From: Fragum whitleyi
Lineage: Eukaryota > Mollusca > Bivalvia > Cardiida > Cardiidae
Length of the DNA: 64,000 nt
Assembly (NCBI GenBank): GCA_948146395.1
Contig: OX411547.1
Location: 62,501,610 to 62,565,609 of the forward strand
Direction of reading: 5' to 3'
Positions within the stretch are counted from its first letter, which is position 1, and each line of letters opens with the position of its first letter. The translations under genes and the position numbers were made by a program. The notes under the pieces were generated by a model that was not told the origin of the DNA, did no database searches, and saw only the letters and a program-made list of their open reading frames with translations. Positions 6,920 to 48,457 of the stretch are shown piece by piece.

Positions 6920-7314
6920 ATGGCACAAAACAAGAAAACCAAGCGTTATTTATCAGACTCCGAAGAGGAAACTAGGAGCAGCAAGTCTTTTCCAAAGTTC
7001 CTTGTAATTTAAAATGCAAAACTCCCTGATGATCCTATAACAGATCTTTCACCTTTCATTATTGAGAAACAACTCAATGCTATATCATCGACACACCTAA
7101 GTCCGTGAAAATTTTGAAAAATGAAACGTTGTTGATAGAGGTATCTAAAAGAGCACCGGCAGATAATCTATTAAAGATCACAAAGTTCTACAACATAGAA
7201 GTCAAATGCTACGCCCATGAAAAGCTTAATACATCTGAGGAAGTAATTCGCTGTAGAGAACTGTCTAAATGCACTACGATTTATGAAATTAAACAAAATC
7301 TTGATAAGGATTGA
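6920..7314 (+). pseudogene. LINE ORF1 (gag-like), 5' part, broken and truncated
   Basis: ORF1 of this kind of LINE encodes a nucleic-acid-binding protein that packages the element's RNA. The start at 6920 gives MAQNKKTKRYLSDSEEE, a basic then acidic N-terminus. SPFIIEKQLNAISST follows after an in-frame stop at about 7010. A frameshift near 7098 moves coding into a frame reading ETLLIEVSKRAPADNLLK, FYNIEVKCYAHEKLNTS and RCRELSKCT. The pattern matches the N-terminal half of mollusc LINE ORF1 proteins as I recall them. The zinc-knuckle half and ORF2 are missing because the element stops at about 7314, where reversed B-type modules begin shortly after. Confidence 0.6.
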
Positions 7315-7417
7315 TAAGACATTATCTCTTCAATGCTTGGACAGGCTGACCCCATTAAATTTGGGTTACCGAAAACATGTCGGATATTAGATGCTCAAAT
7401 ACTACTGAAAGTGCCAA

Positions 7418-7850
7418 ATTTTACAGGTACAAGCATTCTGACCACGTTTCAAGACGTTTGGGTCAAAAATGTGGCCTCTTGATCACACACAAGGTTTTTC
7501 TTAGATTTGACCCAATTTCGAATTTAACCGAGATTTGATGGAGACAAACATTCTGACCAAGTTTCAAGACTTTTGGGCAATAATTTGGGCCTCAAGAGTG
7601 CACACAAGCTTTTCTTAGAATTGACCCCTTGAAAACATTTTGACCCCTTTTGACCCAATTTCGAACATGCCCGAGATTTGATGGAGACAACATTCTTACC
7701 AAGTTTCAAGACATTTGGCCGAAAAATGTGGCCTCTAACGTGCACTCAAGTTTTTCGAATATTTGACACCTTGACCCTATTTTTGACCTCGCTTGTTCCA
7801 ATTTCGAACTTTGTCGAGATTAGATTGAGACAAACTTCTAACCAAGTTTC
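7418..7850 (-). repeat. B-type modules, inverted
   Basis: Three to four copies of the B module on the minus strand show TTCTGACCAAGTTTCAAGAC and GTGGCCTC on the plus strand. Three copies are spaced 142 bp apart; the outermost, decayed one is 115 bp away. The 159-codon open frame from 7678 reads through these modules into unrelated sequence and is not a credible gene. Confidence 0.65.
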
Positions 7851-8767
7851 CCAAATATACTGCTTTTTAAACACAAGTGCACGGCCTTCGGATGCCTACG
7901 CTCGGCTGTTAAGTGATGATGGAAAATATAGAAAAGGGGCCTACCTTGCACAACATGCATCTAGAGTTACCTCCCTTGATAGTTTAGATTGCTCTTTTGA
8001 TAGTGAACATGTGTGCCAAGTTTCAAGTGGTTGCTTCAGTAGAACCAGAGATATCACGAAATTTAAGTTTCCGAACGACGATTACAACAACGACGGCGAC
8101 AATAAGGCTGTAGCAATAGAAATTTATACAACAACAAATGAAAACAGTTATACATAGTACAAAATAAACTAACCGTGTATCCTTTAATGATAGCACCCTT
8201 CCGAATAGCCCTTCCGAATAGCATCACCCTTACATTTTTAACTAAAAAATCCTACTTCAAAAGCCTAAATTTAAGGAAATTTTTTAGACTTGTTTTTTAA
8301 TTTGAGATGAAGTTCTTCTATCGTATAAATACAATTCACATCAATTCAAATTAAAAAGGGCCTTTATTAAATTCACATCAATTCAAATGATTTTAAATGA
8401 AAATGCATACTAATTTAAAGCTCCCTGAGCAGTCATGTATAGCTCCCGGGAGCAATTATAAGGAGAAATATGGTACATTAAATACTCATCTTAATTTTCT
8501 AACTTCTGTTATTTGATTTACAGGTTATTCTACTAAGAATCATAATGACATTAAATCTGTGTTATTGATCAAGAATTAAACTTCTATAACACACACCTGA
8601 AATTTTTTATATGCGCAAAAATTGATAATATCAACAGAGTTTGTCTTATATTTACTAAAGTTAAACACTATTATATCCTTGTCTGTTCCAAGTTCCCTCT
8701 TTTGTATTAAATTGAAATTTGTATGGTCTCTAATGTTTATCTTAAAATAGCGTCAACGTTATTAAAA
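7851..8767 (+). other. Unassigned, AT-rich toward the end
   Basis: 7860-8110 is less AT-rich and may be the tail of another repeat. 8160-8767 is AT-rich with a short direct repeat (AATTCACATCAATTCAAAT at about 8333 and 8371). No gene was seen. Confidence 0.4.
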
Positions 8768-10008
8768 AACAAGAGGCCCAAGAGGGCCTGTATCGCTCCA
8801 CTGGCTTTATCATCTCAAGATTTGAAAGAAAAATATTGAAAATAGAAATTAATGAAAGTCACAAGCATTCAGAAGGAATTCTGACTTTTTCCTAATTGAT
8901 ACGAATTTACAAGCTAATCAGAAGAGAACACATATAACTAACAAAACTAAAATTACACGGAAGAAGACTTTTTCTATGTCACTTAAAAGAAACCTATTAC
9001 ACTTATTTAACTCAAAATTATTCAATAAATTTCATTTCACCCATTACCTGACAATTTTGACTTTGATTAATCTGAATTCCAAAAAGTCTTATCAGACTAC
9101 GTAAAGCAAAAAAGCAAAGCCGAATAATGCAGAAAACATTCATAGAAAATGAATTAGAAAGCCATGAATGGCTTGAGTCGCTCCACAGGCTTGAAATTCT
9201 TGTAAAAGCAAATAAATGTTTTGACTAGATTTTTAGATATTTGGGGTTCTACTGATGTTGAAAATGATTTTCAAAGTTATATAACAGATAGAGAAATGAC
9301 CTCCGCTCTTAAAATATATATTTTTCATCAAATCAAAATGATTTTTTGTAGACTGATAAAGGGTTACTCAAGGATCATTCCAGTGAAATTTGGTGGATAT
9401 CCATCTGTTAAATTCTGAGAAATTGATTTTCAAAGTTTCCACTATATAACATATAGAGAAATGACCTCCGCCCATAAAATGCATTTTTTTCCATCCAATC
9501 ACAATGATTTTTTTGTAGACTGATAAAGGATCACACAAGGATCATTTCAGTGAAATTTGGTCGATATCTATCAGTTATATTCTGAGAAAATGATTTTCAA
9601 AGTTTCCACTATATAAGATACAGAGAAATGACCTCCGCCCATAAAATGCATATTTTCGATCCAATCACGATGATTTTTTGTAGACTGATAAAGGGTCACA
9701 CAAGGATCATTCATGTAAAATTTAATTGGTATCCATTGATTAGGATCTGATAAAACTCACTTTTTACCATATTTGGAAATATGCCACGCCCATTAAATCC
9801 AAGTTTTACATTGGATCAAAATTTCTTGAATAAATTGAAAGAGGGTCACCCAAGGATCATTCCTGTGAAGTTTGGTTGAAATCCATCCAGTAGTTTCTGA
9901 GGAGAAGATTTTTAAAGAAAAGTTTACGACCGCACGGACGGACGGACGCACGACGGACACAACGCCATGACAATATATCCAGTGGCCTTCAACCAGTGGA
10001 GCAAAAAA
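8768..10008 (-). mobile_element. F2 modular repeat, both ends present
   Basis: Read on the minus strand, the left end at 10008 is TTTTGCTCCACTGG, then a hairpin, then a GTCCGTCCGTCC stretch at about 9940-9960. The right end at 8768 is CCAGTGGAGCG, hairpin, CTCTTGTT. Three or four modules between 9220 and 9760 carry GAGAAATGACCTCCGC and TTTTTTGTAGACTGATAAAG. A last module next to the left end is C-like (GGGTCACCCAAGGATCATTC). A second right-end-like hairpin (AGCCATGAATGGCT plus GTCGCTCCAC) lies at 9163-9190, so there may be two nested or tandem right ends. There is no coding capacity. Confidence 0.7.
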
Positions 10009-10800: not shown

Positions 10801-11301
10801 AAAAAGCCACGCCCTGCCATGCCCATATTTGGGGGTCAATCAATTTTTTTTTTAAATTTTAATAAAGGGTCACCCAAGAAACAACCATGCCAAGATTCAT
10901 TGAAATAGGCCCAATCGTTCTTGAAAAGAAGATTTTAAAAGATTTTAAAGTGAAAATATGCCCCGCCCTGCCACGCCCATATTTGTGGATCAATCAGAAT
11001 TTCTTGAACAATTTATATAAAGGGTCACCCAAGGGAACACCCCTGCCAAGTTTCATTGAAATAGGCCCAATGGTACTGGAGTAGAAGATTTTTAAAGAAA
11101 AAATAAGCCACGCCCATATTTGGGGTCAATCAAAATTTCTTTAACAATTTTAAAAGAGGGTCACCCAAGGATCATTTCTACAAAGTTTCGTTAAAATCCA
11201 CCCATTGGTTTGGGAGGAGATGTTTAAAGAAAAAGTTTACGGACGGACGGACACTCCGCCATGACAATAGCTCGCTGGCCTTCGGCCAGTGGAGCTAAAA
11301 A
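10801..11301 (-). mobile_element. F2 repeat, left end with C-type modules
   Basis: Minus-strand reading begins at 11301 with TTTTTAGCTCCACTGGCC, hairpin CTGGCC-GAA-GGCCAG, then GTCCGTCCGTCCGTAAAC. Three C-type modules follow, each with GGGTCACCCAAGG, TTTCATTGAAATAGGCCC and GCCACGCCCATATTTG on the plus strand. No right end is seen, so the copy is truncated near 10801. Confidence 0.7.
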
Positions 11302-14425: not shown

Positions 14426-15418
14426 AACAAAAGGGACAAAACGATTCAAATCCCCTCATGTGAATTTTATTGGTCCAGCGGATCTTATCCGAGTAATTTT
14501 CTGGCAGACCGCCAGAGTTTCATTCACATCTGCCTCATATTTGAAGAGATGTTATTCCAAGAATTTAATGTAATAATAGACCCTGTCCACCTTTTCATTA
14601 CTCAGAAGACGGAATTTTAAAACCACCCTGAAACACCCATATTTATGGGCTAATCAAAATTTTGCGAGCAATTTTAAAAGAGGGTCATCAAAGTAACTTT
14701 CTGGTAAAGTTTCATTGAAATCGACCCAGTGATTCAGGAGGAAAGGTTCACAGATTTCGGGCTTAAAATAAGCCCCACCGTACCACACCCATATTTATGG
14801 GCCACTTAAAATTTTGCGAACAAGTTTGAAAAGGGTCACCCTATGAACATTCTGGTAAATTTTCATGGAAATCGGCCTATTGGTTCAGGAGTTATCTGTC
14901 AAGGATGACGGGATCAAAACAAGCGCCACCCTACCATACCTATATCTATGGGCCAAACAATCTTCTGCGAACAATTTTTGAAAAGGGTAACCCAAGGAAC
15001 ATTCTGGTAAATGTTCACTGAAATCGGCTAGTTATTCAGAAGATGTCATTCAAAGATTTCGGGCCAAAAAAAAAGCCCCGCCCTGCCACAACTATAGTAA
15101 TTGGCTAATCAGAATTTCACGCACAATTTACAAAGGGGGTCAACCAATGAACATTCTGGTGTAGTTTCATTGAAATAGGCCAAATGGTCTAGGAGATGTT
15201 TAAAGATTTTCAAGTAAAACAAATGACACGCCCATGTTTATGGACCAATCAGAATTTCATTAACAATTTCTAAAGAGGGTCACCCAAGGAACATTCTGGA
15301 AAAGTTTCATTGAAATCGGTCGAATGGTTCAGGAGAAGACGTTTTTAAGATTGTTGACGACGGATTGAGGGTGATCCTAAAATCTCACTTTGAGCACGTT
15401 GTGCTCAGGTGAGCTTAA
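14426..15418 (-). mobile_element. F1 modular repeat, C-type modules
   Basis: The left end (minus strand, from 15418) is TTAAGCTCACCTGAGCAC, then a GTGCTC stem arm, then GGATCACCCTCAATCCGTCG. About five C modules (CCACGCCCATGTTTATGG, GGGTCACCCAAGGAACATTC, TTTCATTGAAATCGG) lie between. The right end at 14426 is decayed but alignable with the intact right end at 48380-48457 through AATTTTATTGGTCC and TTTCATTCACAT. This pairs an F1 end with the modules that F2 carries at 10801 and 17780. Confidence 0.7.
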
Positions 15419-17779: not shown

Positions 17780-18410
17780 AACAAGAGGCCTGAGAGGACC
17801 TGTATCGCTCAAATATCTAAAATATATGAAAGCGAGATATTGAAAATAGAAGGTATTTTAAGTCAACAGCATTCAGAAGGAATTCTGATTTTTTCCAAAT
17901 TGATATTTATGCACAAGATATTTGAAGTGACCACATAACTTATATGTAAAATTACATGGAAGACAGCTTAAAAAATCACACTTATTAAACTCAAATTGTT
18001 AATAAAATTGATTTGACCCATTACCTGAAAAGTCAATATTGAGGGGGTCCAAAATAAGCCCCGCCCTATCACGCCCATATCTATGAAAAAAATTCAAATC
18101 ATATTTCCCGAACAATTTGTAAAAAAGGTTCACTCTAAAACATTCTGGTAAAGTTTCCATTTGTCCAGTGGTTCAGGAGATGTCGTTCAACGATTTTGAG
18201 CAAAAAATAAGCCCCGCCTTGACACGCCCATATTTAAAGACCAATCAAAATAACGAGAACAATTTTGAAAATAGTCATCCAATGAACATTCTGGTGAAGT
18301 TTCATTGAAATTGGCCCAGTGGTTAAGAAAAGTGTCGTGCAAAGATTTTGGGCTAAAAATAAGCCCAGCCCTGCCACGCCCATACTTATGAGCCAATTTT
18401 CGCATACAAA
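17780..18410 (-). mobile_element. F2 right end with C-type modules, truncated
   Basis: AACAAGAGGCCTGAGAGG is the complement of the F2 right end. About 270 bp of right arm follow, matching 8830-9070 (CATTCAGAAGGAATTCTGA; CCATTACCTGA). Three C modules with GCCCCGCCCT and TTTCATTGAAATTGGCCC continue to about 18410. No left end is present. Confidence 0.6.
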
Positions 18411-27445: not shown

Positions 27446-27557
27446 GTCTTTGATTTTTTTTAATGTTTTACAGAAAATAAAAATGAAATTGTAAATGTAT
27501 TATTGGAAAAAATGTTTAATAAATGTTTCAAAAATGTTAAAGAATAAAAGTTATAAC

Positions 27558-28130
27558 CATGAATATATCTGTCATTTTATTTCTATCCAGTGAAAGGTAA
27601 GGACGTTAAAATTCAGTTTGAAACAGTAAGTTTCCATGTTAGAAATGTTGAATTGTCATCAGTAGTTGCAAATAATCTGAACCAACTTATAGTGCAGAAT
27701 AACATGGAAATCTCTGTTCGTAGAGTAACATTTTCAATCACTGACGGTACTCTATCAAAAGTGGAAGATCATTTGTTCCAAGGCCAATTACCAAATCGCA
27801 TCTTTATTGGAATGGTGACAAATGGACTTATGCATCAAATCCATTCATTTTCACTTTCACTTTCATATAAGAAAAATAGGCGTGGCGTGTAATAGACACA
27901 GTAATCATGGTAAACCATTTGAACCTAATTACACAAATGGATTAACACAGAGATGATATGTGTCTTTGTTCAATGCCAAAAAATCCATTGGGGCTGACAA
28001 ATGATTTGGTATAACAAAAGATGAATATGATGCTGGATTTGATCTCACACCAGATCATGGTAGTGAAGAAGGGCAGTTGCATCATATAAAAACAGGAGTC
28101 TTTGGATCAATAATGTACACAAGTGAAATT
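27558..28130 (+). pseudogene. Virus-like capsid protein, F54H12.2-like, broken
   Basis: Proteins annotated F54H12.2-like in invertebrates are, as I recall, structural proteins of Maverick/Polinton-type virus-like elements. The first frame, open to 27892, contains TFSITDGTLSKVEDHLF and QGQLPNRIFIGMVTN, which fit the conserved core of that family. After a frameshift near 27840 the downstream order is kept: KPFEPNYTNGL around 27915, SLFNAKKS around 27970, and DEYDAGFDLTPD around 28030. The N-terminal part of the family is missing upstream, several stops interrupt the rest, and no full-length protein is possible. It is the first of three consecutive pieces on the plus strand (capsid-like, protease, small ORF), so it is likely part of one inserted element. 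Homology is from memory and needs a profile search. Confidence 0.55.
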
Positions 28131-28171
28131 CAACATATGTATTTGGATCGTGGAATGGGAATTAAAATCTC

Positions 28172-28554
28172 AATAGAAGAGTATGTGCAAAGGATTTATT
28201 ACCAAAACAAAAGCCTTCACATGTAAAGGCTTATATCATCAATACAGCAGATTCTCACAACTCAGGAGAATATTGGGTAGCAGTTATATTCTATCCAAAT
28301 GGTTTTGCAGTGTAGTTTGACTCACATGGTCTTCCACCACATCACTTTTTTTCCTAAATAGTTCACGTTTATGGACTTATAATAACCAACCTATTCGAAG
28401 CATCATAGAAAAGTTTTTGGACAATATTGTATTTTTACCTTGGATGGGATAGCAAGAGGATACTAATTAAAAAACTTCTAAGCAAAACATTCAGCACAAG
28501 GCACTTACACAAAAATGACAGAGTAGTGACATCATGGTTCATATAGACATTTAA
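28172..28554 (+). pseudogene. Adenain-like cysteine protease, broken
   Basis: Adenovirus-type maturation proteases (His-Asp/Glu-Cys) cut capsid precursors and also occur in Maverick/Polinton elements. The order of motifs is visible: VCAKDLLPK near 28195, KAYIINTADS near 28235, GEYWVAVIFYP near 28270, FDSHGLPP near 28316, a SRLWTYN-like stretch near 28365, and GQYCIFYL near 28420. The Asp and the Cys are present. The catalytic His expected in the [EK]HW position is Tyr (EYW). A TAG at 28313, one frameshift near 28350 and another near 28415 break it. The end at 28554 gives about 125 residues, short of the 200 or so usual. AATAAA follows at about 28645. It lies directly downstream of the capsid-like piece, as expected for a virus-like gene block. 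Confidence 0.6.
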
Positions 28555-28834
28555 CAGGATTGTATAGACATTTTGTAAATATAAAATTGATTGCAGATAT
28601 GTTCATGAATACCATTTTTGTTCTTAGTTCACAGTTCATTGTTCAATAAAATATAGAAAATGTTAACATTTGTGCCTTGTTGTCTTTAAATATTCCATCC
28701 TTTTCATGCTTGTTCATGATAAAGGTAAAGAGAATCGGATTCATGATAAAGAATTATGATAAATGTCATATTTTCATGCTTGGAGAAAACACAAAGTCCA
28801 TTTCTAAAAATCAAAGTAGATGTGCTTTCGCCAA

Positions 28835-28889
28835 GGTCCGCGTCTCCTTAATATAAATACATAACAGATCTTCCACTCTTTAACATTCT
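28835..28889 (+). promoter_or_regulatory. Histone-gene-like core promoter
   Basis: GGTCC at 28835, TATAAATA at 28852 and CATTC at 28884 precede the ATG at 28895. Sea urchin histone genes have, as I recall, a GATCC-type box 10-15 bp upstream of TATAAATA and a PyCATTCPu cap site; spacing from TATA to CATTC here is 32 bp, right for a start site. The predicted leader would be about 11 nt. The assignment rests on motif order and spacing only. Confidence 0.5.
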
Positions 28890-28894
28890 AAATC

Positions 28895-29242
28895 ATGGAA
28901 ATGATTCGTAGAGAACTCATAGATATAGCAAATGAATTGCTTAACATTGCTCAGCGACTGTATTGTGTACAGGTAATGATAGGAGACACTCAAATCATCT
29001 CTCCACAAAAAAATGGCATTGAGCAGACACCAAATTATGATCTGCAAGATGTCATTTACTTGGATAGACCCATCTTGGGTAGGACAAAAGAACAACAAAC
29101 CAGAGGACAACTTGAAGTCATTTACATGGGTACTCAATTTAGGGGCCGAGTGGTATGGAATGGAGAAACATTGGTCATGAAGAAAAGAATACGGAGACAT
29201 TGTCCAATTTGCAACGCACGGTTTGGATGCAGACACTACTAA
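28895..29242 (+). CDS. 115-residue protein, function unknown, histone-style mRNA unit
   Basis: The frame is open from ATG at 28895 to TAA at 29240-29242. The first 25 residues (MEMIRRELIDIANELLNIAQ) look helical. The C-terminus is basic and ends KKRIRRHCPICN followed by ARFGCRHY, a small Cys/His cluster (HCxxC, then CxH) that could bind zinc. There is no histone fold and I do not recognise the family. Unlike its two neighbours upstream it has no stops or frameshifts. It is tightly framed by a TATAAATA promoter 43 bp before the ATG and by a histone-type stem-loop 34 bp after the stop. This is the compact layout of a replication-dependent histone gene with a non-histone product. The context suggests it belongs to the virus-like remnant, but it could be an unrelated host gene. 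The long minus-strand frame over it is a shadow. Confidence 0.5.
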   Translation: MEMIRRELIDIANELLNIAQRLYCVQVMIGDTQIISPQKNGIEQTPNYDLQDVIYLDRPILGRTKEQQTRGQLEVIYMGTQFRGRVVWNGETLVMKKRIRRHCPICNARFGCRHY

Positions 29243-29276
29243 AAAGATGGCGGTAGAACAATCAATCAACAAAAAA

Positions 29277-29310
29277 GGTCCTTTTCAGGACCACCCAAAA
29301 ACAAGAAAGA
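29277..29310 (+). terminator. Histone-type mRNA 3' stem-loop and downstream element
   Basis: GGTCCTTTTCAGGACC (29277-29292) is a perfect six-pair stem with a TTTC loop, preceded by an A-rich run and followed by ACCCA. CAAGAAAGA follows at 29302, nine bases after the stem. In animals this pair, bound by SLBP and U7 snRNP, directs cleavage of non-polyadenylated histone mRNAs in S phase. It lies 34 bp after the stop of the 115-codon ORF. The match to the consensus is complete on both parts. Confidence 0.85.
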
Positions 29311-29584
29311 ATTCATTTTCTTTCGCTAATTGTCAAAGTCCTTTTGCATTCATCACTTTCACAATACACACAATCACTAATTACAAAGACAAAATCCATA
29401 AACGAGGTCCCTATCTTCCCGTATTCGGACGGTAACATAGGGACTAAGTCCACATGCAAATAACTCACATTTCTAGTAAAAAAGACTAAGTCCACACGCA
29501 CAAATAGCCTGTCCAAGGTATGGACTGCAGTCTGGTACCAGGGTACCACACAGCCGTCTATGACTACTCGTGGCAATTTTTTTC

Positions 29585-30000
29585 AAAACAAAATCTTTAA
29601 AATTCTTCTCCAAAACCATTTGGCCATTATCGATGAAACTTAACATGACTGTTTCATGGGTGGTCCTTTATATGAACTGTTTAAAATATTTAATTTGCCC
29701 TTAGATATGGGCAAGGCAGAGCTTATATTTTTATGAAATCTTGTAAAATCGCCTGACTTAAACTTGGCATGAACGTGCTTTTACCCTATGTCATTTATAA
29801 AGAAAAATACCTTTGTGTTTCTTTGGTGAACCTTTTCTCAAGTTGTATTCAAGAAAGAAATATTGATTGAACCCATTGTATGGATGTGGTGTTGCGGGGC
29901 CACAAAATGTTCTCCCAAACCATTTGACCAATTCCAACGAAATTGGCAGGATGATGTGTCTTGAACCAATCTTTTCATAGCTGTAATTTTGTTGGTCTAT
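29585..30000 (+). repeat. Degenerate modular repeat units
   Basis: Two units have the module core in diverged form: TTCTCCAAAACCATTTGGCC with GATGAAACTTAACATGA, and TTCTCCCAAACCATTTGACC with ACGAAATTGGCAGGATGA. GGGTGGTCC follows the first. No end hairpin was seen. Confidence 0.45.
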
Positions 30001-34164: not shown

Positions 34165-35670
34165 ATGGAGAGTAACGTAATGCTTAAAACCTGGGCTCCG
34201 AGAATTGAATTTTCGGACATATATTTTCGGACATATATTTTCGGCAGCTCCTTTAAAACTAGGATCGGAGTCAAACAGGGATGTGTTTTAAGCCCAACTC
34301 TCTTTTCCTTATATCTTAATGATTTAAAGAAAGGATTTGGCGAAAATTGTGACCCGGTAACACTTGCCGGTTTGCAAATTTCTTGCCTGATGTACGCAGA
34401 TGACATAGTCCTCTTATCTCAAACTGCCAGTGGGTTGCAAAATCTTCTTAACAAATTGGAAGATTTTTGCAACCAGTGGAACCTTAAAGTTAATATAGCC
34501 AAAACAAAAGTAATTATTTTTAATAAATCCGGTAGAGTCCTAAAGGGCTATGATTTTTTATATGGACACAATTCCCTAGAAATTGTTAATGAATATAAAT
34601 ATCTTGGAATATATTTTAGGTCATCTGGTGTGTTCACACAAGGCATTAAATACCTTTGCAATAAGGCACTTAAAGCTATCTTTTGTATAAGAAAAGCCCT
34701 GTTGTCAGATAGTATGAACACTGGACTTTACATGACGTTGTATAACCATTGTGTGAAACCAATTCTTTTATATGGCAGTGAAGTTTGGTCTATTGATTTT
34801 CTAATAAATAAACCAGGAGTTGACCAAATGGAGAATAAGTACGACTCTTTAATATCTGAGAAAATACAATTAAGATATTTTAAACATGTTTTGGGTGTCA
34901 ACAAATATTCAGTGAATGATGCAGTCAGGGCAGAGTTTGGTATACTACCTTTAGCAATATATGGTCTGCAGGCATCAACTAACTTTTGGGTTCATCTAGT
35001 GAATTTGAAAGAAAATTTTCTTGCCTATCTGGCCTACAGGGAAAGCATGACTTTTAAAAAAGGCTTTGCCCAAAAGTTTAGAATCTTTCTGCAGAACATT
35101 CAATTTTCTCATCTCTGGGATAACCAGAATACCATTTCGAAAAGTAGATTGTTACATGCAATTAAATCTAAACTTAGAGACTCCTATGTTCACTCCTGGT
35201 TAAATAAATTACATGATGACGGTAAAAGCCTACCCAATGGCAATAAATTAAGAAACTATAGAATATTTAAATCATTATATGAAAAAGAAACATATCTTTT
35301 TGTCAACGAATTGCCTAAAAATGAAATTTCCACTTTTGCAAAGCTACGAATAAGCTCCCATGATCTTCAAATTGAAAAGGGCAGGCATACTAGGACTCCA
35401 TTGATTGACCGTAAGTGCAACTTGTGCAATTTGTGTGTCGAGGATGAGAGGCATTTTGTGATGGAGTGTGTTTCACTTTCGACACAGAGAACTACTTTTT
35501 TTAGTGAATTGAATCAAATTGTCCCATCTTTCGATCTCAAAACGACTGAAGAGAAGTTTGCTTTTATAATGGAATGTAAAGATTATGACATTGCTAGTAC
35601 ATGTATTAAGAATATTTGTAAAATGTTTAAAGTTAGAGAAACGTTGATAAAAAGCAACAGTATTACTTAA
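34165..35670 (+). CDS. LINE ORF2, reverse transcriptase to C-terminus, 5'-truncated
   Basis: This is the 3' two-thirds of a non-LTR retrotransposon polyprotein that copies its RNA into DNA at the target. TRIGVKQGCVLSPTLF with SLYLNDLKK is RT motif region 4, and LMYADDIVLLS carries the two catalytic Asp. VNIAKTKVIIFNKSG and YKYLGIYF follow, then a thumb region. Near residue 415 is a Cys/His cluster (CNLCNLC, VEDERHFVMEC) of the zf-RVT kind. The endonuclease and first RT motifs are missing. The start codon at 34165 is probably not native, because the true element begins near 34198. There are about 500 codons without a stop, so the insertion is young, but it cannot move alone. Clade not assigned. 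Confidence 0.8.
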   Translation: MESNVMLKTWAPRIEFSDIYFRTYIFGSSFKTRIGVKQGCVLSPTLFSLYLNDLKKGFGENCDPVTLAGLQISCLMYADDIVLLSQTASGLQNLLNKLEDFCNQWNLKVNIAKTKVIIFNKSGRVLKGYDFLYGHNSLEIVNEYKYLGIYFRSSGVFTQGIKYLCNKALKAIFCIRKALLSDSMNTGLYMTLYNHCVKPILLYGSEVWSIDFLINKPGVDQMENKYDSLISEKIQLRYFKHVLGVNKYSVNDAVRAEFGILPLAIYGLQASTNFWVHLVNLKENFLAYLAYRESMTFKKGFAQKFRIFLQNIQFSHLWDNQNTISKSRLLHAIKSKLRDSYVHSWLNKLHDDGKSLPNGNKLRNYRIFKSLYEKETYLFVNELPKNEISTFAKLRISSHDLQIEKGRHTRTPLIDRKCNLCNLCVEDERHFVMECVSLSTQRTTFFSELNQIVPSFDLKTTEEKFAFIMECKDYDIASTCIKNICKMFKVRETLIKSNSIT

Positions 35671-39352: not shown

Positions 39353-40873
39353 ATGGAGCCAGTGAAAATTAACTGTTGTTGTGCTCGCGACCTAGAATTA
39401 ATCCCAGGTGTTGATAGACGAATTGCAGAGACAATATTAGAATTAAGAGATTCATACGGTAAAATCTCACCAGAACAATTCGCAACCTTAGGAATTAAAA
39501 ATCTACCTCTCGCGATGAAAAGTGTTGACTTCCGCCCATATGAAACCATTAATGAACAAACACACCCTCAAACTGTTTATAATAGTCAGTCTGCCCGGAA
39601 GTCAGAGGTAACAACAGAATTAAGAAATAGACAATCAAGTGTGTTCAGAAACGGTAAAGACCAGTCTCGTGTCTCATTTTCTCCAGACCGACTGGATCTG
39701 ACATCACACTTTAAATCTATGAATGTGAGGCCAACCCAGGCTTTTGAGTCATATCCCCTTGACCAACTGGGTGGAAATAAATCTGAAAGGGAACTTGAAA
39801 CTAATCCGCATTACAACTGGCAACAGGTTCATAGGGTTGAAAATCCCAGTCTGCGAGGACCAGTTCACAAACAAGCATATAATCAATCTTCTAGGACCCA
39901 GACTCTTGAAGTTAGGTGTCCGTACTGGTCCACTCCAAGGTGCAGTTATGAACCTAGCACTATTAGAAACATATGCCATCCAGTAAATGAAGAACAGAGA
40001 AATGATTATGATAAGGATACCCTTCAAGCAAGATCTGTTAATCTTCCAGACATAAGCTACGATGGCAGATCTGACTGGCGTGCCTTCATAATGAAATTCT
40101 CTAGCTATGCGGATAGGGAAAAATGGAATTCTACGGAACGGCGTGATGTATTGTCCTGGATTTTACAAGGAAAAGCCAGCGAATACTTTACCCAACTAGT
40201 GGACAGAGACCCGAAGATTGATTACTTTGAGGTCCTGAGTCAACTGGCTAAGAGATTCGATATACGAGATATGCCAGAGACAGTGCAGCTACAGTTCAGT
40301 TCTACTATTCAACATCCAAGAGAGAGCATAGTAGAATGGAGTGACCGGATAATGAATATGGCCATACAAGCATATCCTGACCTGACAGAATATCAAATAT
40401 ACAAGTAGGCTATATTAAGGTTCTGCCAAGGCTGATTGGATAAAGAGGCTGGATTTTATGCATTGAACCAGAAGCCCAAATCCATGGAAGAAGCCATTGA
40501 TAGAGTCAGGTGGTTCCAACATACAAACCAGGCTGTATATTGTAGATTTGGGAGACAAACCAGCACTTTGTACGAGCCCGAGGAATCTGACCCTGAGTAC
40601 CAAATTCCCTATACTCCTCTTGACTCTGAATCTGACACCAAATGGTTAGATCATGGTCAAGAAGTAACCAGGATGGAAGAGTTTGAGTCTCGGATGAGTC
40701 AAAGAATATATGTTTTGGAACAAAAAGTGGCCGATTTAACTGATAACGTCACTGCTTTGACGGTAGCAGTAGAACAGGAATCCTGGTCACCTCTTAATAA
40801 TAAACGATGTTTCAAATGTGGTAAAGAAGGTCATTTGAAAGCAGACTGCAAGGCCCAAAACAAGACTAAGTAA
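39353..40873 (+). pseudogene. Retrotransposon Gag with N-terminal helix-hairpin-helix
   Basis: Gag proteins coat and package retroelement RNA. The ATG at 39353 opens MEPVKINCCC. Residues about 12-50 (LELIPGVDRRIAETI, LRDSYGKISPEQF) match a ComEA-like helix-hairpin-helix DNA-binding motif. A polar linker follows, then the gag core from about residue 225 (ISYDGRSDWRAFIMKF; WILQGKASEYF; FDIRDMPETVQLQFSS). A TAG at 40406 and a TGA at 40433 interrupt the frame, which continues unshifted to TAA at 40873. Beyond them come EAIDRVRWFQHTNQAV, a coiled-coil-like stretch and a CCHC zinc knuckle CFKCGKEGHLKADC near the end. Total length is 506 codons. Either the copy is dead or readthrough is needed. Confidence 0.75.
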
Positions 40874-47910: not shown

Positions 47911-48457
47911 TTTTAGCTCATATGAGCACAACGTGCTCAAGGGGAGCTTTAAGGATCACCCTGAGTCCATCGTCAACAATCTTAAAATTTTCTTCTCCTG
48001 AACCACTGGGTCGATTTCAATGAAACTTTGCTTCGATGTTCCTTGTGTAACCCTCTTTAAAAATGTTCACTAGATTCTGATTTGCACATAGATATGGTCA
48101 TGGCAGGGCGTGGCATTTTTTCTCTTTGAAATCTTTGAACGACATCTCCTGAACCACAGAGCCGATTTCAATGAAACGTACCAGAATGTTCCTTGGATGA
48201 CCATTTTCATAATTTTTTCACAAAATATTGACTGGCCCAAATATTGTCATGGCAGGGTGGGGCTTATTTCGAGTCGCCTCAGTAAAGAATGGGTGGGCAG
48301 GGTCTATTATTTCTTTAAAATTTTGGAATAACATCTCTTCCACAATTACAAAAATAGGTAAATGTGAATGAAACTTTGACCTAAAGTTACTTGGTTGGGT
48401 TCCAACGGACCAATAAAATTCAGGTGAGCGATTTAGGCCCATTCTGGCTCTCTTGTT
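47911..48457 (+). mobile_element. F1 modular repeat, C-type modules
   Basis: Left end TTTTAGCTCATATGAGCAC with the second arm GTGCTCAAGG, then GGATCACCCTGAGTCCATCG. Modules contain TCTCCTGAACCAC, GATTTCAATGAAAC and GGCAGGGCGTGGC. The right end is CAGGTGAGCG, a weak hairpin, CTCTTGTT. It lies within F5-type sequence. Confidence 0.75.

Follow-up and report, generated by a model that had tools for sequence, protein, structure and literature searches.

Histone-style transcription units in a Polinton/Maverick element of the bivalve Fragum whitleyi

A stretch of 64,000 nucleotides of the Fragum whitleyi genome (contig OX411547.1), in the following called the window, contains a short open reading frame that is surrounded by the control signals of a replication-dependent histone gene. 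The original prediction held that this single transcription unit encodes a protein that is not a histone. It left two options: either a virus-like element uses the S-phase mRNA pathway of its host, or the control regions of a histone gene were captured around a foreign ORF. The locus thus raises the question of which kind of protein is encoded, which element carries the unit, and whether the histone-style signals are likely to be in use.

The signals are located on the plus strand, at the predicted positions. A GGTCC box (28835-28839) is followed by the TATA box TATAAATA (28852-28859) and a CATTC cap-site-like box (28884-28888), which lies 32 bases past the start of the TATA box. The ATG at 28895 opens an intact ORF of 115 codons plus TAA (28895-29242), the ORF of unit D. 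Downstream of it, the histone mRNA 3' stem-loop GGTCCTTTTCAGGACC (29277-29292) is directly followed by ACCCA, and the histone downstream element CAAGAAAGA (29302-29310) is found nine bases past the stem-loop, also as predicted. The role of such an element is that of a U7 pairing site. The covariance search that had been proposed for 29270-29310 agreed with this reading. The Rfam model Histone3 (RF00032) matched positions 29272-29317 with 37.0 bits (cut-off 34, E 3.5e-7), and it was the sole Rfam family above its cut-off within the 64-kb window. Folding of the RNA from 29262 to 29325 resulted in a 6-bp stem with a 4-nt loop (z -5.2), and none of 200 shuffled sequences was equally stable. The 15 bases after the downstream element, ATTCATTTTCTTTCG (29311-29325, plus strand), are near-invariant in 29 copies and, in the fold, are able to form a hairpin with the downstream element; they might represent a switch or a longer U7 site.

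Two of these features are not beyond chance when they are regarded by themselves. Simulated sequences of 64 kb contained on average 0.95 ATG frames with a length of 115 codons or more (60 simulations), and the pattern CARGAAAGA, which represents CAAGAAAGA, matched 3 times in the window, with 1.97 matches expected. The order and spacing of the signals, and above all their conservation, raise unit D above chance, because the ORF has at least 150 copies in the assembly (1.22 Gb, 38 contigs) and a footprint of conservation is seen. Of 221 first-look candidates 150 were scored, all 150 matched, and 141 of these (row count) have no internal stop codon. The counts of the boxes rest on the best-scoring 30 of the 150 loci, the window copy included. 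The original prediction had allowed that other copies might lack the stem-loop, which was not found: it is present in all 30 of these best-scoring loci, exactly in 26 and with one change in four. The GGTCC box is exact in 24 loci and has one change in six, the TATA box is present in 30, the CATTC box in 29, the downstream element is exact in 29, and no box deviates by more than one change in any of the 30 loci. At the Rfam cut-off, the stem-loop was detected in 16 of 20 short loci taken from the 30, and in 8 of 8 long stretches, which re-cover loci from the same 30. The stem-loops of L016 to L019 have a base change in the stem and are below the cut-off.

The footprint became visible when unit D of the window was compared with the 29 other copies. 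The difference was 0.041 for GGTCC, 0.000 for TATA, 0.004 for the cap box, 0.009 for the stem-loop, 0.004 for the downstream element, and 0.016 for the 15-base extension. Between the signals it was 0.367 (GGTCC to TATA), 0.121 (TATA to cap), 0.207 (5' UTR), 0.095-0.144 (ORF), 0.366 (stop codon to stem-loop), and 0.222 (ACCCA linker), and the flanks differed by 0.253 and 0.210 upstream and by 0.198 downstream. The choice of the best-scoring loci and the youth of the copies account for part of their likeness. The median dN/dS of the ORF is 0.28 (23 distinct ORFs of 29; 223 pairs with dS above 0.02).

The D protein has an N-terminal helix, VIY repeats, and a basic C-terminus with CPICNARFGCRH (C-x2-C-x5-C-x-H). 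It had no Pfam, PHROG, or significant PDB match. The predicted non-histone nature of the product is thus borne out, as neither Pfam nor PDB contained a histone family match. What the PDB search yielded, namely a designed coiled coil (E 0.18), phospholipase C (1.1), and BRE1 RING ends (1.3-8.1), was weak and was rejected as chance. An AlphaFold model that was based on two sequences had a pLDDT of 46, and its confident part was the N-terminal helix only. Among 5.8 billion proteins two relatives were found, P0001 and, with a profile, P0002. P0001 is equal in length and 79% identical to the window copy, and it shares 91-99% identity with the 29 other D loci, so that it stems from the same species or a near one. 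P0002 has 93 amino acids and is devoid of one 22-residue stretch that contains a VIY repeat. The N-terminal stretch and RRHCPICNARFGCxH are kept in all three proteins. A scan of IMG/VR, which depends on short conserved peptide stretches, revealed no relatives of D, bacterial and archaeal genomes contained none, and phages yielded a single match at E 5. The notion that a histone gene has decayed here and that the ORF is due to chance, which had been considered for this locus, was rejected, because the ORF family is conserved at the dN/dS given above and has the relatives P0001 and P0002. Based on the helix, the basic stretch, and the likely zinc site, our guess is that D might be a small nuclear regulator of chromatin, of host replication, or of the DNA of the element.

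Unit D forms the terminal gene on the right side of a Polinton/Maverick, i.e., of a virus-like integrating DNA element. Eight copies were viewed in longer stretches (L038-L045 and, upstream, L046-L053). Deletions apart, they can be aligned over their length, and unit D is found at one constant place. The copy on contig C19 (L038 and L046) has a size of about 18.6 kb, as calculated from the coordinates of both ends. Its Pfam matches comprise a DNA polymerase B (L046, DNA_pol_B_2, E 2.7e-40), the family to which the protein-primed polymerases of Polintons belong, an integrase with chromodomain (L038, rve 1.2e-13 and Chromo 4.6e-6), an A32-like ATPase (Pox_A32, 1.8e-5, just above the curated cut-off), and an adenovirus-type protease (L038, 155-aa ORF, Peptidase_C5, E 1.5e-4, also just above the curated cut-off). 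A 436-aa ORF of L038, which we tentatively take to encode a major capsid-like protein, the double jelly-roll type being the one expected in a Polinton, had no Pfam and no PDB match, its model had a pLDDT of 34, and no relatives were found in IMG/VR with the scan for short conserved peptide stretches. A further ORF of 303 aa (L046, 4256-5164, minus strand) is divergent from the polymerase gene and contains a CCHC zinc knuckle (E 1.5e-4).

Both ends are present in seven of the eight copies, and in the eighth (L039/L047) the left end is missing. All seven are bounded by terminal inverted repeats and flanked by target duplications of 6 bp; the latter were read by eye, which for L049, L051, and L052 involved moving the edge by one to ten bases. 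The inverted repeats are 425-446 bp long in six copies (433 bp with 96.8% identity in L038/L046) and are in broken pieces in L044/L052. They contain tandem repeats of about 50 bases (L038 about 9593-9836, window 29443-29500), which apparently vary among the copies. The polymerase, the integrase with chromodomain, the ATPase, the protease, the long inverted repeats beginning with AG, and the 6-bp target duplications are the same as in known Polintons/Mavericks (adintovirus-like). One alternative is that unit D is a host gene, controlled like a histone gene and coding for a chromosomal protein that is divergent or evolves fast, and that Polintons adjoin it by chance. The basic C-terminus and the histone-style control would fit a protein of this kind, but unit D is found at the constant place beside the same Polinton genes in 8 of 8 extended copies, the terminus of the element and the 6-bp duplication lie outside of it, and it has no histone family match, so this explanation is hardly credible.

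The copy in the window is an incomplete Polinton (27462-29568, plus strand), of which left-middle and right pieces remain around large internal deletions. A blastn comparison with L038 revealed that window positions 27462-27604 correspond to 579-735, 27605-28098 to 7137-7665, 28094-29469 to 8226-9620, and 29467-29572 to 9737-9840. The pieces include a broken fragment of the major-capsid-like gene (27605-28098, plus strand; tblastn with the 436-aa ORF, 74-75% identity in two pieces) and a broken adenovirus-type protease gene (28113-28564, plus strand; tblastn with the 155-aa ORF, 60-78% identity in pieces). The remnant of the right inverted repeat (29255-29568), inside which the stem-loop is located, matches L046 1259-1682 in inverted order and in pieces. 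The right terminus, ...GACTACT, was placed at 29568 by comparison with seven copies, and it is followed by CGTGGC (29569-29574), the expected half of the target site, for which no left partner was recognised. Only pieces of the element are left and unit D is intact; dN/dS of the window copy against the other copies is only 0.41-0.54, and for this reason no claim of a domestication is made. A dispersed repeat (29592-29750) starts just outside the element and has relatives at 10811-11230, 15143-15352, 18202-18324, and 47978-48135. The window also contains, at 34165-35670 and 39353-40873, an open 501-aa frame with a reverse-transcriptase match (RVT_1, E 9.2e-20) and gag-like frames, for which a PNMA match below the cut-off and a CCHC knuckle (3.9e-6) were obtained.

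The original prediction concerned one unit, and the extended copies revealed that unit D is accompanied by others. Six of the eight copies contain four histone-style units, designated A to D. Units A, B, and C were each found in seven copies and unit D in all eight. The stem-loops of A, B, and C are in the left third of the Polinton. Unit A is left-terminal and points outward; its ORF has 211-214 aa in four of seven copies, is broken in two, and has lost the start in one. The inner unit B is on the minus strand, encodes 78-79 aa in six of seven copies, and has TATAAAAA, CATTC, and GGCCCTTTTCAGGGCC. The inner unit C is on the plus strand, encodes 103-122 aa, has TATTTAAA in six of seven copies, and GGTCCTTTTAAGGACC. 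Some A or B frames are broken or without a start in L046, L051, L052, and L053; the D frame, by contrast, is undamaged in each of the eight long copies. TATA boxes precede all four ORFs, and no intron was seen in any of the units. The four proteins are non-histone proteins without visible likeness among themselves, and A to C had no convincing Pfam match and no histone match.

The 3' ends of the four units are similar, but not identical. The downstream element is CAAGAAAGA in A and D, CAAGAATGC in B, and a weaker CTTGAAAG in C, so that the CAAGAA-type element is clearest in A, B, and D. The third base pair of the stem is U-A in A, C, and D and C-G in B, i.e., both sides have changed and the pairing is kept. 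The stem-loop of unit B is under the Rfam cut-off (32 or 26 bits; E 8.3e-6 in a 20-kb search), and the same is true for unit A of L053 (32 bits). AATAAA is present just 5' of the stem-loop of unit B, so that the RNA of this unit may be polyadenylated. In about 130 bases around the stem-loops of seven copies each, the fractions of minority letters upstream, within, and downstream of the stem-loop were 0.009, 0.018, and 0.075 for A, 0.086, 0.009, and 0.010 for B, and 0.020, 0.000, and 0.068 for C. The downstream flank of B is as invariant as its stem-loop, and the upstream flank of A is even more invariant. Because the copies are young, these values give no more than a hint that the signals of A to C might themselves be under selection.

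The stem-loops of A and D are inside the terminal inverted repeat, which fits the idea that stem-loop and U7-type site serve the DNA ends of the element in replication, packaging, or integration, and not the 3' ends of mRNAs. However, the stem-loops of B and C are internal, outside the repeat, on the coding strand, and 23-85 bases past the stop codon. In addition, the Rfam Histone3 model, which includes the flanks, was matched end to end, and a TATA box is present before each ORF. A function at the DNA ends is thus very unlikely, and a function at mRNA 3' ends is the preferred reading. In L038 and L046, no stem-loop beyond those of units A to D was detected at E values up to 1, and hence none follows the genes for the polymerase, the ATPase, the integrase, the capsid-like protein, or the protease. 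AATAAA is present 81 bases past the protease gene.

For a comparison with the histone genes of the host, the whole genome was searched for the stem-loop. At least 74 matches were obtained from 75 scored of 321,481 candidates, 53 of them above the cut-off; the search is far from complete, as the window's own stem-loop is absent among the matches listed. One of 14 control genomes gave a match, which was below the cut-off. Among the matches listed, tandem arrays are found on contigs C6, C8, C12, and C22, together with single or paired matches. Five pairs of stem-loops, again among the matches listed, are about 17.8 kb apart, have opposite orientation, and lie beside five D ORFs, as would be expected for both ends of full elements. 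One unit of the C12 array (L054) contains five stem-loops and the genes for H2A, H1, H3, and H4 together with that for H2B, which is in two pieces; the genes were named from reading the translations. The stem-loop of host H1 is GGTCCTTTTCAGGACC and thus letter-identical to those of units A and D, and the other four have GGCCC-type stems like unit B. Three of these five histone stem-loops are also under the Rfam cut-off (31.3-32.9 bits). The downstream element of host H2B is CAAGAAAG.

The Polinton units resemble these host genes in the promoter boxes, the TATA box, and the short intron-less ORF, and further in the 16-nt stem-loop followed by a purine-rich downstream element. CATTC, as in the Polinton units, is present in the host genes for H2A, H1, H4, and H2B. 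The promoters were compared by local alignment, with 300 mononucleotide shuffles for each of the 25 comparisons, which were not corrected for multiplicity. The D promoter of the window scored 33 with H2B (0 of 300 shuffles as good) and 24 with H1 (1/300), and the block TGCTTTCGCCAAGGTCCGCG (28823-28842, plus strand) is common to both host promoters. Unit A scored 27 with H2B (0/300), 26 with H1 (1/300), and 22 with H3 (7/300), unit B 35 with H1 and 29 with H2B (0/300 each), and unit C 37 with H4 (0/300). The D promoter of L038, which has a GGTAC variant, had weak scores with H1 (20, 14/300), H2A (21, 14/300), and H2B (20, 21/300). The box common to H1/H2B and the units is TGCTTYC-N-GGTCCGCG (GGTACGCG in B), and the H4 box is GGTYAGTGGGTCAGTAGGT. 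An H1/H2B promoter box is thus common to A, B, and the window copy of D, and an H4 block is present in C. The comparison of the flanks with histone genes, as the original prediction had suggested, revealed a match of promoter box and 3' end to the host repeat, and the reading as a decayed histone gene was rejected.

The blocks that the units have in common with H1, H2B, and H4 of the host have a length of only about 20-40 bp and would fit an old capture as well as mimicry. Chance recombination might thus have captured histone control regions around foreign ORFs, in which case they would be passengers and the transcripts would have no special regulation. The stem-loops of A and D, being in the inverted repeat, could have spread by gene conversion, and the footprint of A to C is weak. 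On the other hand, the signals of D are near-invariant compared with the spacer between stop codon and stem-loop (0.37) and the flanks (0.20-0.25), and among the four separate units the stem-loop occurs in three different sequences and the host-like promoter box in two kinds. A passenger status is therefore improbable, although somewhat less so than a function at the DNA ends. A use of the signals is favoured over it because of the near-invariant D signals, the different stems, the promoter boxes that match those of the host, and the other genes without a stem-loop.

Taken together, the Polinton very probably expresses a set of four units via the S-phase histone mRNA pathway of its host. The two options of the original prediction are hereby joined, as the unit belongs to a Polinton and its promoter box and 3' end are like those of host histone genes. 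The promoter machinery of the host histone genes would transcribe units A to D. Three articles describe that SLBP attaches to the stem-loop and that the purine-rich element is paired with U7 snRNP; the cleavage leaves no poly(A), and the machinery is active in S phase (PMC9756948, PMC5011920, PMC5706932). SLBP and U7 snRNP would likewise cut the RNAs of the units after the stem-loop without addition of poly(A), SLBP would aid translation, and the messages would be destroyed at the end of S phase. Transcripts without poly(A) that peak in S phase are thus to be anticipated, and the four proteins would be produced as an S-phase class, when the supplies of host replication are at hand. For the replication and capsid genes, which are devoid of a stem-loop, ordinary polyadenylation would be expected. 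It is also probable, albeit with less confidence, that this temporal gene class mimics the histone programme, the units copying different host promoters (H1/H2B for A, B, and D; H4 for C).

PMC12775136 describes metazoan histone mRNAs as a unique class that ends in a stem-loop without poly(A). The Polinton units differ from histone genes in that they encode four non-histone proteins and belong to a mobile element, which occupies at least 150 places outside the histone arrays. Four genes in histone format are the difference to known Polintons. When the main text of three Polinton papers (PMC4028283, PMC8097293, PMC11071308) was searched for the word "histone", no occurrence was found. The open-licence literature, judged by titles and the beginnings of abstracts, contained no report of Polinton genes with a histone stem-loop, which is a weak hint that none has been published. 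Among viral contigs that were scanned for the stem-loop pattern, seven stretches were obtained, and none had an Rfam Histone3 match.

We know of no description of histone-format genes in Polintons. Some viruses carry histone genes, e.g., H4 in polydnaviruses. These are also virus-like elements tied to histone biology; there, the histone protein is carried, whereas here it is the control format without the protein. If the proposed use is true, it would be a case from nature in which the SLBP/U7 pathway serves genes other than those of histones, showing that this pathway can be borrowed, and RNA-seq with poly(A) selection could miss such genes. It would also mean that a virus-like element times a gene set through mimicry of histone genes. 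To our knowledge, the life cycle of this Polinton-type group is hardly known, and the four units would define an S-phase gene class for it, which would suggest that these elements are tied to dividing cells.
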